Shown here: positions 659 through 6,294 of the stretch, one piece after another
Layout of the letters: each line of letters begins with the position of its first letter
Numbering within the stretch: position 1 is the stretch's first letter
Assembly (NCBI GenBank): GCA_040757115.1
Contig: JBFLYA010000042.1
Location: 1 to 6,294, forward strand
Length of the DNA: 6,294 nucleotides
Direction: 5' to 3'
Source of the DNA: a bacterium
GTDB taxonomy: Bacteria > UBA9089 > CG2-30-40-21 > SBAY01
The notes under the pieces: generated by a model
Databases searched by the model: none
What the model saw: only the letters and a program-made list of their open reading frames with translations
What the model was told of the DNA's origin: nothing
Made by a program: the position numbers and the translations under genes

Positions 659-3523
659 ATGGCAGGAGACAAAATAATTAGTTCATCCCTTTGGCATAAA
701 CTTATTTCTGAAGATAACCTCTACTCTGCCTGGCTTAAGGTAGCCGGGAATATGGGCGCAGGAGGAATAGATAGGGTTAGTATAGAGGATTTTCAACTAA
801 ATCTCCATGAAAATCTTGAGATTATCAAAACCCTGCTTGAGAAACAAGGGTATAACTTCTTACCCTTAATTAGGTTTGAAATAGATAAACCTTCCGGTGG
901 TAAACGACCTTTAGGCATACCCGCGGTAAGGGATAGAATTGTTGAACAGGCTTTACTGATGGTGCTTCAACCAGTATTTGATAAAGATTTCCTCAATTGC
1001 AGTTATGCCTATAGACCAGGTAAATCTCCACATAAGGCGCTAAATAGGGTTGAGCAGTATCTAAAAAATGGCAATCATTGGATGGTAGATGCAGATATTG
1101 ACTCGTTCTTCGAGACTATTGACCATAATCTGTTGATAAAATTTATTGAGCAGAAGATAAGTGATTTTAGAATAATTGAGCTTATAAAAAGGCTACTTAC
1201 AAAAACAGGAGAGATAGAAGATAAAGGCATATCTCAAGGGGCAGTCATCTCACCATTATTGGCTAACATCTATCTTCATCAATTTGACTTAAAGATTACT
1301 GGATATGGATATAGGTTAGTAAGATATGCTGATGATTTCTTAATTCTATGTAAATCTAAGAATGAAGCAGAAGAAGCCTTTAATCTGGCGGCTCGCACTT
1401 TGGAGGAATTGCATCTAAGAATTAATGAGGCAAAGACAAAGATACATAATTTGGAGGATGGATTTATATTCCTGGGATACCAATTTAGCCCAAAAGGGAA
1501 AAGTCCTTCCCCAAAAGCAGTGGAAAGACTCAAAAATAAGATTAAAACGGAGGCTAATCAATTGAATCCATCAAAGGAACGATTGAGGAGTATTATTTGT
1601 GGTTGGAGAGGCTACTTTAAACTTGACCCAGAAAGAGATACGGATTTGATAAAGGCACTTGAGGAAATTTTAAACACAGAACCACAATCTATCCCTGCTC
1701 ATTTAGCTCTCGCCGCTTGTGCTATAGAGGCTGGAGATATTAAAAAGGCTTATGAAATTGCCTCAAATAGAACAAAGTTGCCAGCTTCAGATGCCCCTGA
1801 AACTCATTATCAATGGGGTGTGGTTTATGATGAATTAGATAAGCCTGAGGAAGCCGCTGAAGAGTTCTTTAATACCCTGAAACTCAATCCACAACATAAA
1901 GATGCCTTTTATAGCTTAGGCTTACTTTATCTTAACCAGAAAAAGGTTGATAAATCTATTCGCTACTTTCAAAAGGCAATTCAGATTGACCCTGAGTTTG
2001 CCCTCTCCTATTATGGGCTTGGGTCAGCATTGGAACAATGGGGACTTCGTGGAGCTTCTGCAAAGGCATTTAAAAAGGCTTTTGAACTCAATCCAGAACT
2101 TAAAGAAAGTAGATGCATTAAAGAAGTAGAAAAAGGTAAAGAAAAACTACCATACAACGGATTGGATTTTAGCCTATTTTTAAATCTGTTTATGGGCAGA
2201 GAAGGGGTTTATGCTAAACAATGGGTTGATAGTGGTGGTAAAACAGGATATTTACCCGTAAGAAGTCCTTTAGGCGAAAAGGAAATTAAAGCACATTTAT
2301 CTGGCGAGCAAACTATAGGAATGTATCTTATAAGAGCAGATAATACTGTCAAGGTAATGGTGATAGATATTGATGTAAATAAAAAGATGATACTCAAGTA
2401 TAGCCTCGATGAGGAAATGATGAAAACATTTGATAAAAAGACACAGGAAGATGCTAATAAAATTAGTAGTTTTTGTAATGAATTGGGAATCAATGCCTAT
2501 ATTGAGGATAGTGGTTATAAAGGGAGACATTGCTGGTTTTTCTTTAAACAGCCTCTACGGGCTTCAGAGGTAAGGGAACTTGGGATGATTATTATGAAGA
2601 AGGTTGGTGAACCCGCAGAGGGTATTCATCGAGAACTCTTTCCTATACAAAATATGGTTTCTTCAGATGGCTTAGGTTGTCTGATTAAACTCCCATTAGG
2701 GAAACACAGGGTAACCCAAAAGCGTGCTCTATTTGTAGATTATAAGGGTATCCCTTATTCAGACCAGGCAGAATTTATAAAGGGAATAAAGTTGATAACC
2801 AACGAGGATATTAAACAGGCTATTGAAAGATTACATCTCGAAGTTCAACAAAAAGAAGAGATTTTAAAAGAGGAACCCCAAGATGAATCCATTCAGAAGG
2901 TCATTCAAGGATGTAATGTATTGAGATTTCTGGTTAATAAGGCAAAAGAAACAAAAGACCTTAATCACTACGAAAGATTAGTGCTACTTTATTCCCTGGG
3001 ACATTTAGGTGATGAAGGCAAAAGATACATCCATTATGTTATGAGTCATTGCTTAAATTATAGTTTTCATATCACCCAGCGGTGGTGTAACCGACTTCAG
3101 TATTCTCCTATAAGTTGTCCCAAAATTAGAGACTGGTTATCTAATATTACGCCAGCCATAGGTTGTTACTGTGAATTTAAATTACCAGAAGGCGGCTATC
3201 CCTCACCAGTTCTTTACGCTAATCCCAATGCTACAAAACAAATGGGGATGAAAAAAGACGCTATAGTTAGTCAACATCAACCAGTTTATATTAAAGAAGA
3301 AAAACCAACAGCACTGGCAGAAGGAGAATCTATTGATGAGATAGTGAAAAGATATATTGAGCTTAAAAAACACAAAAGAACAATTGAATTAGACCTGCAA
3401 AAACAAGAGCATAGACTTAATTCGCTATTTGATACAAAAAAGACTGATTCTATCTTGACTGAATTTGGTGTATTAAATAGAATAAACCAGGAAGACAAAA
3501 CTATTTGGATGATTGAGATTTAA
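659..3523 (+). CDS. reverse transcriptase-TPR-archaeo-eukaryotic primase fusion (CRISPR-associated RT/prim-pol)
   Basis: The 954-residue product is a probable prespacer-making polymerase. Residues 1-290 form a group II intron-like RT: AGGIDRVSIEDF near the start, KPSGGKRPLGIP (77-88), YAYRPGK (116-122), motif A VDADIDSFF with D146, GISQG (190-194), YADD (223-226) and FIFLGYQF (269-276). GWRGYFK (315-321) recalls the maturase segment; there is no HNH nuclease. Residues 345-485 hold about four TPR-like repeats ending in NP/DP. Residues 495-700 are an AEP primase core: GREGVYAKQW (513 on), IDID (D570, D572), SGYKGRH (618-624) and KLPLGKHR (677-684), much as in TOTE-type primases. Residues 750-840 resemble a PriL C-terminal domain with C752, C798, C820 and C836/C838. 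Residues 890-926 look coiled coil. All catalytic motifs appear intact. Family knowledge: CRISPR-associated prim-pols and their RT fusions occur beside cas1/cas2. RNA-derived spacer synthesis is inferred. The ATG at 659 is chosen because it places the RT N-terminus normally; the RBS is weak. Confidence 0.93.
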   Translation: MAGDKIISSSLWHKLISEDNLYSAWLKVAGNMGAGGIDRVSIEDFQLNLHENLEIIKTLLEKQGYNFLPLIRFEIDKPSGGKRPLGIPAVRDRIVEQALLMVLQPVFDKDFLNCSYAYRPGKSPHKALNRVEQYLKNGNHWMVDADIDSFFETIDHNLLIKFIEQKISDFRIIELIKRLLTKTGEIEDKGISQGAVISPLLANIYLHQFDLKITGYGYRLVRYADDFLILCKSKNEAEEAFNLAARTLEELHLRINEAKTKIHNLEDGFIFLGYQFSPKGKSPSPKAVERLKNKIKTEANQLNPSKERLRSIICGWRGYFKLDPERDTDLIKALEEILNTEPQSIPAHLALAACAIEAGDIKKAYEIASNRTKLPASDAPETHYQWGVVYDELDKPEEAAEEFFNTLKLNPQHKDAFYSLGLLYLNQKKVDKSIRYFQKAIQIDPEFALSYYGLGSALEQWGLRGASAKAFKKAFELNPELKESRCIKEVEKGKEKLPYNGLDFSLFLNLFMGREGVYAKQWVDSGGKTGYLPVRSPLGEKEIKAHLSGEQTIGMYLIRADNTVKVMVIDIDVNKKMILKYSLDEEMMKTFDKKTQEDANKISSFCNELGINAYIEDSGYKGRHCWFFFKQPLRASEVRELGMIIMKKVGEPAEGIHRELFPIQNMVSSDGLGCLIKLPLGKHRVTQKRALFVDYKGIPYSDQAEFIKGIKLITNEDIKQAIERLHLEVQQKEEILKEEPQDESIQKVIQGCNVLRFLVNKAKETKDLNHYERLVLLYSLGHLGDEGKRYIHYVMSHCLNYSFHITQRWCNRLQYSPISCPKIRDWLSNITPAIGCYCEFKLPEGGYPSPVLYANPNATKQMGMKKDAIVSQHQPVYIKEEKPTALAEGESIDEIVKRYIELKKHKRTIELDLQKQEHRLNSLFDTKKTDSILTEFGVLNRINQEDKTIWMIEI

Positions 3524-3524
3524 A

Positions 3525-4520
3525 ATGGCTACCTTATATTTAACCGAACAAGGTTCTGTAGTAAAGAAAAAGTCACGACGATTGGTAGTGGCTAAAAAAG
3601 AGGAGATTTTGGCAGAAGTTCCTACCTTCAATCTCGAAAGGGTAATTATCTATGGGAATGTCCAGATTACTACGCAGACATTAAACTTCCTTTTAGAATC
3701 AGGGATTGAAACAAGTTTTATGTCAACTCATGGGAAATTCCATGGCAGGCTTGCACCTATGGAATCAAAGAATATTCTATTACGAATTGCTCAGTATGAG
3801 CGATACTTAGATGAAGAGTTTCAAGTAAATCATAGCAAGAGAATAGTAGAGGCAAAGATAAAGAATGGGAGGACAATTATTCAGCGGTATATATCTAATC
3901 ATCCAGAAGTAGATTTTGGAAATGTGGTTGAGGAACTTGCTCAGTCCTTAAAAAGTCTTCAAAACAAAGAAAGGGTTTCAACTATATTAGGCGTAGAGGG
4001 ACAATCTACCGCTAACTATTTTCAAGCCTTTGGGAAAATGTTTAGAGGAGATCTAAAGTTTGCGGGGCGATGCCGGCGTCCCCCTAAGGACCCCATTAAT
4101 GCCCTATTAAGTTTTGGTTATATGCTGATTACTAATGAAATATTATCCATCCTTTGCGCTATAGGTTTTGACCCTTATATTGGGTATCTTCATGGCATTG
4201 ATTATGGTCGGCCATCACTTGCCCTGGATTTGGTTGAAGAATTTAGACATCCAGTAGTTGATAGATTTACCCTGAATTTGATTAATAACCATATCCTCTC
4301 TGAGGATGATTTTGAAAATAAGGGAGAGGAAGGAATCTATTTGAAAAAAGAAGCTCTGACAAAATATTTTGCTCAATATGAACAGATGATAACTCATTCA
4401 TTTACAGATTTTTCTTCAAATGAAAAGATAAATTATAGACTCTTATTTAAAAATCAGGCTTATAAATTGGCTAAAACTATTCAGACAAAAGAACCTTATC
4501 AACCTTTTTTAGTGAGATAA
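3525..4520 (+). CDS. cas1: CRISPR-associated endonuclease/integrase Cas1
   Basis: Cas1 is the metal-dependent integrase that, with Cas2, inserts prespacers at the leader-repeat junction. The 331-residue protein is a normal length and carries the conserved active-site pattern: E158 in LGVEG, H223 in YLHG, and D235/E238 in LDLVEEFR. GRCRRPPKDPINALLSFGY and the GIDYGRPSLALDL block are also typical of the family. The N-terminal 80 or so residues are the beta-rich dimerisation domain and the rest is the helical catalytic domain. The ATG at 3525 is preferred, giving the N-terminus MATLYLTEQG. An in-frame TTG at 3513 would add only four residues and overlap the previous gene. The start lies one base after the stop of the RT-primase gene, so translational coupling is likely. 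The RT is not fused to Cas1, unlike in many RT-Cas1 systems. No inactivating change is seen. Confidence 0.97.
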   Translation: MATLYLTEQGSVVKKKSRRLVVAKKEEILAEVPTFNLERVIIYGNVQITTQTLNFLLESGIETSFMSTHGKFHGRLAPMESKNILLRIAQYERYLDEEFQVNHSKRIVEAKIKNGRTIIQRYISNHPEVDFGNVVEELAQSLKSLQNKERVSTILGVEGQSTANYFQAFGKMFRGDLKFAGRCRRPPKDPINALLSFGYMLITNEILSILCAIGFDPYIGYLHGIDYGRPSLALDLVEEFRHPVVDRFTLNLINNHILSEDDFENKGEEGIYLKKEALTKYFAQYEQMITHSFTDFSSNEKINYRLLFKNQAYKLAKTIQTKEPYQPFLVR

Positions 4521-4524
4521 AAAG

Positions 4525-4800
4525 ATGTTTATAGTTGTTTCTTATGATGTCAGGAATGATAAAAAAAGGAATAAGATTGCTAATCTTATGGAAGATTATG
4601 GGACAAGAGTCCAATATAGCGTCTTTGAATGCCATTTAAATCAAAAAGTATTTGACAGGATGGTAAAGGATGTGTTAAAATATCTTCAGATTGAGAAAGA
4701 TAGTCTGCGAATCTATAAGATTTGTGAAGATTGTATTTCAAGGATAGAGGTTTACGGCGTGGGCAGAGTAACAGAAGATGAAGAAGTAATTATTATTTAA
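4525..4800 (+). CDS. cas2: CRISPR-associated protein Cas2
   Basis: Cas2 forms the central dimer that bridges two Cas1 dimers in the adaptation complex. The 91-residue product is typical in size and shows the ferredoxin-like start MFIVVSYDVRNDKKRNKI, with the conserved Asp at residue 8. It continues with GTRVQYSVFEC, the usual second-helix and strand segment, and then DSLRIYKICEDC. It begins four bases after the cas1 stop, without a clear Shine-Dalgarno sequence, which suggests translation by re-initiation. Its end abuts the array leader, the usual order of cas1-cas2-leader-array. Some Cas2 proteins have nuclease activity in vitro, but the role here is expected to be structural. Confidence 0.96.
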   Translation: MFIVVSYDVRNDKKRNKIANLMEDYGTRVQYSVFECHLNQKVFDRMVKDVLKYLQIEKDSLRIYKICEDCISRIEVYGVGRVTEDEEVIII

Positions 4801-4992
4801 AAACTGAGAATGGGGTTAGTGAAAAAATTGGTCCACCGAGAGGAACCTTGAAAAATAAGGGGAAATTGAGGTAAGTGGTGTTAAAAACAAGCAAAAATTT
4901 GTTTGATTGGAGGTAATTTTTTAATGAAAAAAAGGAGGTTATCGGAAAGTGGGTTATAAGTCTAATAGTATCAAGGGCAAAAACACACCGCA
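4801..4992 (+). promoter_or_regulatory. CRISPR leader
   Basis: This 192-nt AT-rich, gene-free stretch lies between cas2 and the first repeat, where a leader with the array promoter and integration signals is expected. It contains an inverted repeat AAACAA (4885-4890) / TTGTTT (4899-4904), two GGAGGT motifs at 4909-4914 and 4934-4939, and a -10-like TATAAG at 4955-4960. No convincing -35 box pairs with the TATAAG, so the promoter is not defined. The assignment rests on position next to cas2 and on repeat orientation: the repeats end in ATTGCGAC, a variant of the ATTGAAAC ending usual on the transcribed strand of type I/III repeats. Confidence 0.75.
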
Positions 4993-6294
4993 GTAGGAAA
5001 ATAAGACCTGATGAATAAGGGATTGCGACTAATGATAAATTATCGTAGATGGAGGCTTCAAAAAGTAGGAAAATAAGACCTGATGAATAAGGGATTGCGA
5101 CATAAGTAAGAAAATTATCAACATCTTGACTATATTTCGTAGGAAAATAAGACCTGATGAATAAGGGATTGCGACTTATCAATAGTAACAGTAGCTGCGG
5201 GTGGTGAAACTGATGTAGGAAAATAAGACCTGATGAATAAGGGATTGCGACATACCTAAATCCAGGTTTATAGCCTGGAGCTTTTTATAAGTAGGAAAAT
5301 AAGACCTGATGAATAAGGGATTGCGACATAATTCTAATATATGCTCCATTTTTATACCTTCCATTTTTAGTAGGAAAATAAGACCTGATGAATAAGGGAT
5401 TGCGACTGTTATAAATGCTATCCAAGAAAAGTTCGGAAGTCAAGCGTAGGAAAATAAGACCTGATGAATAAGGGATTGCGACTGTGGCACGGGAGGATGA
5501 AGAATCGTGTCACGGTCTGTAGGAAAATAAGACCTGATGAATAAGGGATTGCGACGTTGACCTCGACCAAAAAAAATAGCCCTCATTTGTTAGTAGGAAA
5601 ATAAGACCTGATGAATAAGGGATTGCGACACTCCCGAAATGCCTGCTACCGCTATTTTTCTCATACTGTAGGAAAATAAGACCTGATGAATAAGGGATTG
5701 CGACAATACCATCGCAATTCTAAATTTTTTCATTTTACTTGTAGGAAAATAAGACCTGATGAATAAGGGATTGCGACACATAAAGGAGCACTACAGGACA
5801 TTCTACTTTTGCGTAGGAAAATAAGACCTGATGAATAAGGGATTGCGACAAATGGTTGCGGTCCCGTAGATTTTCTTATCCGAGGTGTAGGAAAATAAGA
5901 CCTGATGAATAAGGGATTGCGACATTTTTTGTCATCCATTCTTTAATTCGAGCAATTTTTTCGTAGGAAAATAAGACCTGATGAATAAGGGATTGCGACT
6001 TCTTCTATTTCTTGTTCTAATCCATATATATTCAGTAGGAAAATAAGACCTGATGAATAAGGGATTGCGACCTCCGTCTGCCGAACCAGATGAATTACTA
6101 TTTCTTGAGTAGGAAAATAAGACCTGATGAATAAGGGATTGCGACGATATGAAGAATGGTCGTTTAGAGTAACTTCTCCTTGGTAGGAAAATAAGACCTG
6201 ATGAATAAGGGATTGCGACGTAAAAATCTGTCTTCATTATTTATTAACCTCTTGATGTAGGAAAATAAGACCTGATGAATAAGGGATTGCGACA
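4993..6294 (+). CRISPR. CRISPR array, 18 repeats and 17 full spacers, continuing past the right edge
   Basis: The repeat is 37 nt, beginning GTAGGAAAATAAGACC and ending AAGGGATTGCGAC. Repeats start at 4993, 5065, 5139, 5215, 5291, 5370, 5446, 5519, 5593, 5668, 5741, 5813, 5887, 5963, 6035, 6109, 6183 and 6257, and all 18 read as identical. Spacers measure 35, 37, 39, 39, 42, 39, 36, 37, 38, 36, 35, 37, 39, 35, 37, 37 and 37 nt, with no duplicates seen. Base 6294 is the first base after the last visible repeat, and no degenerate terminal repeat appears, so the array probably goes on. The repeat lacks a strong palindrome but contains AATAAG twice, at repeat positions 8-13 and 22-27. Transcription is inferred to be rightward, away from cas2, giving crRNAs with an 8-nt 5' tag AUUGCGAC if processed by a Cas6. 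The long, variable spacers and the upstream HEPN gene favour type III. Confidence 0.99.
5261..5286 (+). other. terminator-like hairpin inside spacer 4
   Basis: Within the fourth spacer, TCCAGG (5261-5266) and CCTGGA (5274-5279) can form a 6-bp stem with a 7-nt loop, followed by GC and five T (5282-5286). This is the shape of a rho-independent terminator, though the stem is short. It most likely reflects the source of the spacer rather than a working terminator in the array, but it could lower transcription of later spacers. Confidence 0.35.

Follow-up and report, generated by a model that had tools for sequence, protein, structure and literature searches.

CRISPR-associated primase-polymerases (CAPPs) were defined in 2021, and a type fused to a reverse transcriptase (RT) was already included (Zabrady 2021; PMC8211822). 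The Marinitoga piezophila CAPP primes, extends and displaces strands, and a fragment comprising its TPR and AEP parts binds Cas1 (PMC8211822). Primers made by Marinitoga-type CAPPs begin with a purine ribonucleotide (PMC8211822, PMC10415136). Two of the RT-fused proteins, the CART-CAPPs of Caloramator australicus and Geobacillus lituanicus, have been assayed, and in these the RT domain alone primes and copies both RNA and DNA (PMC10415136). The PrimPol domain alone and the RT-dead protein were inactive in both cases (Zabrady 2023; PMC10415136). The authors hypothesize that PrimPol inactivity is widespread among CART-CAPPs and call the reason for its retention unclear (PMC10415136). On RNA, de novo priming without help is reported for three RTs, CaCART, GlCART and Mm (PMC10415136). 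RT-Cas1 is reported to be able to tail RNA protospacers with DNA for direct integration (PMC11014452).

The window analyzed here, a stretch of 6,294 nucleotides of bacterial DNA, encodes such a fusion. A single uninterrupted plus-strand open reading frame with an ATG start (positions 659-3523) specifies a protein of 954 residues. It begins with a group II intron-type RT domain (residues ~8-330, positions 680-1648), assigned by profiles and fold, whose catalytic residues are D146, D225 and D226. A TPR linker follows (residues ~331-483, positions 1649-2107), matched by Pfam TPR families (best E 4e-17) and modeled as about 10 helices. The PrimPol/AEP domain (residues ~499-728, positions 2153-2842) carries D570, D572, H624, E659 and K677. 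It is followed by a PriCT-like C-terminal domain (residues ~743-861, positions 2885-3241) and a Mu Gam/Gp157-like tail (residues 892-954, positions 3332-3520; PF22709, E 3e-17) with a long helix at 892-927. The C-terminal domain has four invariant cysteines, Cys 752, 820, 836 and 838 (columns C256, C324, C340 and C342 of alignment A2, whose first position is residue 497).

Profile matches assign each half of the protein to a known family. Pfam recovers RVT_1 (E 5e-36), AEP-TOTE (E 3e-51) and the Gp157-TOTE tail (E 3e-17). The NCBIfam group II RT model TIGR04416 matches residues 19-328 at 317 bits (cut-off 300), and NF040561, 'CRISPR-associated primase-polymerase type A1', matches residues 357-916 at 407.4 bits, above its curated cut-off of 200. 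These matches define the fusion as a complete type A1 CAPP (TPR-PrimPol-CTD) with a group II-type RT at its N-terminus. With PADLOC, the RT model scores 306 bits and the 'adaptation polymerase' PrimPol model 296 bits. A sequence search places the PrimPol domain close to the structure 7nqd (E 6e-34). Proteins with this RT-TPR-PrimPol layout have been described before under the name CART-CAPP (Zabrady 2021, 2023), and the fusion has the features of that group: an intact N-terminal group II-type RT, an AEP domain on the same chain, and adjacent cas1 and cas2.

The predicted structure agrees with these assignments. The AlphaFold model of the 954-residue protein has a mean pLDDT of 83 and a pTM of 0.48, at which relative domain placement is unreliable, so no distance between the active sites was read from it. 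Residues 10-350 resemble the GsI-IIC RT (6ar1, Z 33.0), and the RT also superposes on the crystal structure of the CaCART-CAPP RT (8bgj, Z 22.0, 190 residues, rmsd 1.7 Å). Residues 283-487 resemble the OGT TPR domain (Z 19.9), with helices spanning 328-477. The Marinitoga CAPP PrimPol 7nqe superposes on residues 499-728 with Z 31.1 and an rmsd of 1.8 Å over 218 residues. An initial annotation made from the DNA letters had described one polypeptide with RT, TPR repeats and PrimPol beside cas1/cas2, and the reading frame, profiles and folds confirm this. It had also named an AEP fold for residues 495-700 as a test beforehand, and that fold is present (AEP-TOTE, E 3e-51; 7nqe, Z 31.1). Every residue it quoted was correct on rechecking: DADIDSFF starts at 144 (giving D146), YADD lies at 223-226, IDID at 569-572 (D570/D572), SGYKGRH at 618-624, and IKLPLGKH starts at 676 (KLPLGKHR, 677-684). 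Its description likewise holds: one protein unites an RT with a CRISPR-associated PrimPol, cas1 and cas2 are separate, and both catalytic centers are intact.

The genes that follow are those of an adaptation module. On the plus strand, cas1 (3525-4520, 331 residues; PF01867, E 2e-95; TIGR00287) starts one base past the fusion stop codon, and cas2 (4525-4800, 91 residues; PF09827, E 2e-24) comes next. The interval from cas2 to the first repeat (4801-4992) is the presumed leader, by position only. No sigma-70-like promoter was found in it; a lone terminator-like hairpin lies on the minus strand at 4830-4847, possibly by chance. Repeat detection identifies a CRISPR array on the plus strand at 4993-6293, with 18 identical 37-nt repeats and spacers of 35-42 nt. 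The repeat has a weak minus-strand match to Rfam CRISPR-DR8, below the gathering threshold. The array is type III-like, and it runs on past the end of the window beyond a run of N. This run (contig C42, L032, 6294-6483) is flanked on both sides by the same spacer and repeat, so the array length in the assembly is unreliable. Upstream of the fusion, a plus-strand reading frame at 67-648 encodes a HEPN-type C-terminal part resembling Csx1/Csm6 (PADLOC CARF_HEPN, E 1e-10; Csx1, E 3e-9), with an R-x6-H motif (RNNGPLAH); its score against TIGR02672 is below the cut-off. No CARF part is in frame with it, there being an in-frame stop at 61-63 and the contig beginning at base 1.

Effector genes are absent from the window and were found on another contig of the same genome. 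At C7:4433-13087 lie cas6, cas10/csm1, csm2, csm3, csm4 and a CARF gene; past them comes a short array that has 24 nt of repeat in common with the window array. A homologous fusion (L035/L044) adjoins a Cas10-Csx10-RAMP operon that is III-D-like. The fusion is thus associated with type III systems both here, through Csm1-4 on C7, and in the homolog near Cas10, Csx10 and RAMP genes. We infer that the window locus and the C7 Csm operon work together, with crRNAs from the window array probably loading the type III-A Csm complex encoded on the other contig. Two further cas1 genes occur in the genome (G000 C15:850-1677 and C301:1471-2328; L141 and L142), and one of them adjoins a long array whose repeat differs; several CRISPR systems therefore coexist in it.

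The spacers were compared with phage records and viral contigs. The array had no match in phage records, and five of six spacer cores had none among viral contigs. The sixth had an exact 22-nt match to a viral contig, which was not counted, as the spacer matches at only 27 of 38 bases. No protospacer was identified among the phage records and viral contigs searched. By analogy with related systems, the spacers of this array may be of RNA origin.

Genome searches yielded 22 further loci with RT and PrimPol in one open frame. Their hosts include Nitrospinota, Bacillota, Verrucomicrobiota/Lentisphaerota, Calditrichota, Thermodesulfobacteriota, Acidulodesulfobacteriota, CSSED10-310 and ANME-type archaea. 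This recurrence of uninterrupted fusions in unrelated genomes rules out misassembly or a chance fusion. Nearly all 22 are adjoined by cas1/cas2, and for many an array lies in the fetched flank. A whole-protein query against close-relative genomes gave no match; an alignment-based scan succeeded. No relatives of the fusion were found in phages or viral contigs, and plasmid matches were distant, mostly to helicase-type proteins. A few more loci, outside the 22, are interrupted by frameshifts or run into contig edges (L045, L053, L054, L058, L059, L061). In L045, L053, L059 and L061 the RT-PrimPol gene is broken by frameshifts at differing points, through sequencing error, decay or programmed frameshifting. 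In two genomes of the same order (L037, 2047-3364; L038, 3602-5108) the RT-CAPP-cas1-cas2 locus has collapsed by internal deletions at differing sites, reflecting decay or assembly error. The joins in L038 yield a 319-residue frame made of the RT start, a piece of the CTD and the Cas1 end.

RT-bearing forms cluster in the PrimPol tree, with three label changes; L048, an RT-less row among them, is cut by a contig edge. The main clades are common to the RT and PrimPol trees, which suggests that the two halves were inherited together. The RT-PrimPol linker shrinks to 51-54 residues in L110 and L068, and any single Pfam TPR family matches at most 5 of 17 fusions, so the fusion can do without TPRs.

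We propose, with moderate confidence, that the fusion is a CART-CAPP serving Cas1 and Cas2 as a two-site adaptation polymerase, in which RT and PrimPol would both be active. The RT domain would initiate de novo and copy fragments of RNA (or single-stranded DNA) into cDNA. As a second active polymerase, the PrimPol would start or finish the opposite strand, or fill in gaps where integration occurs, so that the prespacer reaching Cas1-Cas2 is a duplex. Contact with Cas1 is probably made by the TPR/PrimPol part; docking through the TPRs is plausible because the M. piezophila TPR+AEP fragment binds Cas1 (PMC8211822). We infer the two activities, the order of the steps, the Cas1 contact and RNA as the spacer source. 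A PrimPol that would act once the first strand is made, by synthesizing the second or by filling gaps, is compatible with the published assays and with the conservation described below.

The alternative nearest to the published view is that the RT does all synthesis and the PrimPol is catalytically redundant, acting as a scaffold for RT, Cas1 and DNA. We regard this as rather unlikely, even with two assayed homologs in which the PrimPol is inactive and the RT alone primes and extends (PMC10415136). The residues that bind metal and nucleotide are retained along with the fold. Across 17 aligned full-length fusions, PrimPol residues D570, D572, S618, G619, G622, H624, E659 and K677 are invariant, as are D146, D225 and D226 of the RT. 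Part of the sample was recruited by PrimPol motif II, so conservation of that motif is not independent; D570/D572, E659 and K677 played no recruiting role. Three fusions found by profile and not by motif (L109, L110, L168) keep the DxD and H624, and two of them have R at 677. For the three closest pairs, dN/dS is 0.19, 0.19 and 0.08 in the PrimPol and 0.23, 0.11 and 0.12 in the RT. Both domains are under purifying selection of similar strength, again at odds with a purely structural PrimPol. The family-wide residue conservation and the dN/dS values together suggest that both active sites are in use.

One fusion has lost its PrimPol motifs altogether. In L039 (6404-9115) all are replaced (ALEVEPTQ, NGQHGFR, ITLPLG), the NCBIfam CAPP score is down to 77 bits, and the RT motifs are intact. 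At 1.55, its PrimPol/RT distance ratio exceeds all others in the set of 23, which lie between 0.79 and 1.30. The gene directly next to it (9195-11648) encodes a separate, intact TPR-PrimPol-CTD protein (288 bits), followed by cas1 and cas2. That L039 retains the dead fold hints at a role for the fold as such, in keeping with a scaffold. Against a scaffold alone, the sole fused PrimPol with all motifs lost is the one that lies beside a second, intact PrimPol. Several profile scans used strict E-value limits, at which dead PrimPol domains could be missed; a search at a limit of 1e-3 did recover the degenerate L039 domain. Because the dead fused PrimPol adjoins an intact TPR-PrimPol, the simplest reading of the sequences is that PrimPol catalysis would be needed even with an RT present and can be supplied in trans. 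L039 would then show a natural division of tasks, with the RT on a protein whose PrimPol is dead and the live PrimPol on a protein of its own. We give about even chances to the stronger claim that both sites are needed, the RT making cDNA and the PrimPol making the second strand or repairing the array, with L039 as the split form.

Activity does not follow from intact motifs. L057, a Bacillaceae homolog whose FSDD lies at 210-213, has near-canonical, intact PrimPol motifs, including the variant SG-x-R-G-x-H, whose R also occurs in the Marinitoga CAPP. Since this homolog keeps its motifs, the published inactive PrimPols may look intact too.

The initial annotation had proposed that the AEP domain solves the priming problem of the RT, by supplying the primer from which the RT would start first-strand cDNA. 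The presence of both active sites in the fusion and the purine-ribonucleotide-start primers of Marinitoga-type CAPPs (PMC8211822, PMC10415136) are compatible with this, and we consider it improbable. The idea is weakened because two homologous RT domains, CaCART and GlCART, prime on their own, and these and the Mm RT need no help on RNA (PMC10415136). The reported DNA tailing of RNA protospacers by RT-Cas1, a route to direct integration, also counts against it (PMC11014452). A defense polymerase of the UG10/DRT or TOTE-like kind, placed beside cas genes by chance, would explain the lower-scoring hits to RT_UG10_large (134 bits) and to AEP-TOTE in Pfam, and is given almost no credence in view of the cas1/cas2 adjacency in almost all loci with flanks, the often adjacent array, and best models that are CRISPR CAPP (407 bits), PADLOC RT (306) and PADLOC 'adaptation polymerase' PrimPol (296).

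What is new here is comparative evidence for retained PrimPol function, which conflicts with simple redundancy. If true, the proposal of two working polymerases, both needed, would overturn the published view of the fused PrimPol as a redundant leftover. It bears on how double-stranded spacers fit for integration arise from RNA and on why some CRISPR RTs carry a primase. The conservation suggests a testable conflict with the published explanation of the CART-CAPP PrimPol, and the comparison points to concrete test proteins: the window fusion, its RT-dead and PrimPol-dead mutants, and the L039 split pair.

Among known systems, the UG10 RT-PrimPol proteins of the DRT class also combine RT and primase in one polypeptide; the window protein scores lower against them (134 bits), and UG10 is not described as an adaptation module. 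A mobile group II intron is ruled out, with neither a ribozyme (no Rfam family match to group II intron RNA at E<=1) nor maturase X (GIIM absent from the Pfam matches of the protein at E<=0.01). The RT-Cas1 and Cas6-RT-Cas1 proteins of Marinomonas mediterranea share a group II-derived CRISPR RT within an adaptation module (7kft, E 1.5e-35). An RT-Cas1 fusion is ruled out by the separate cas1 frame at 3525-4520; here the same-chain partner of the RT is the PrimPol. Residues 357-954 form a complete TPR-PrimPol-CTD CAPP of the CAPP-TPR type A1 (NF040561; Marinitoga piezophila and sp. 1137; 7nqd, 7nqe, 7nqf, 7p9j), with a PrimPol match at Z ~31, and the window fusion differs by its extra N-terminal RT. 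The closest likeness is to the CART-CAPPs of Caloramator australicus (CCJ33120) and Geobacillus lituanicus, with an N-terminal group II-type RT, PrimPol and CTD, cas1/cas2 adjacency, a type III association and a model that fits 8bgj (Z 22.0). The window fusion is longer than CaCART-CAPP (954 versus 713 residues) and keeps a clear TPR block between RT and PrimPol. Its PrimPol motifs are intact, whereas the published CART-CAPP PrimPol domains are reported inactive; these motifs and the purifying selection argue against inactivity as the common state of CART-CAPP PrimPols.
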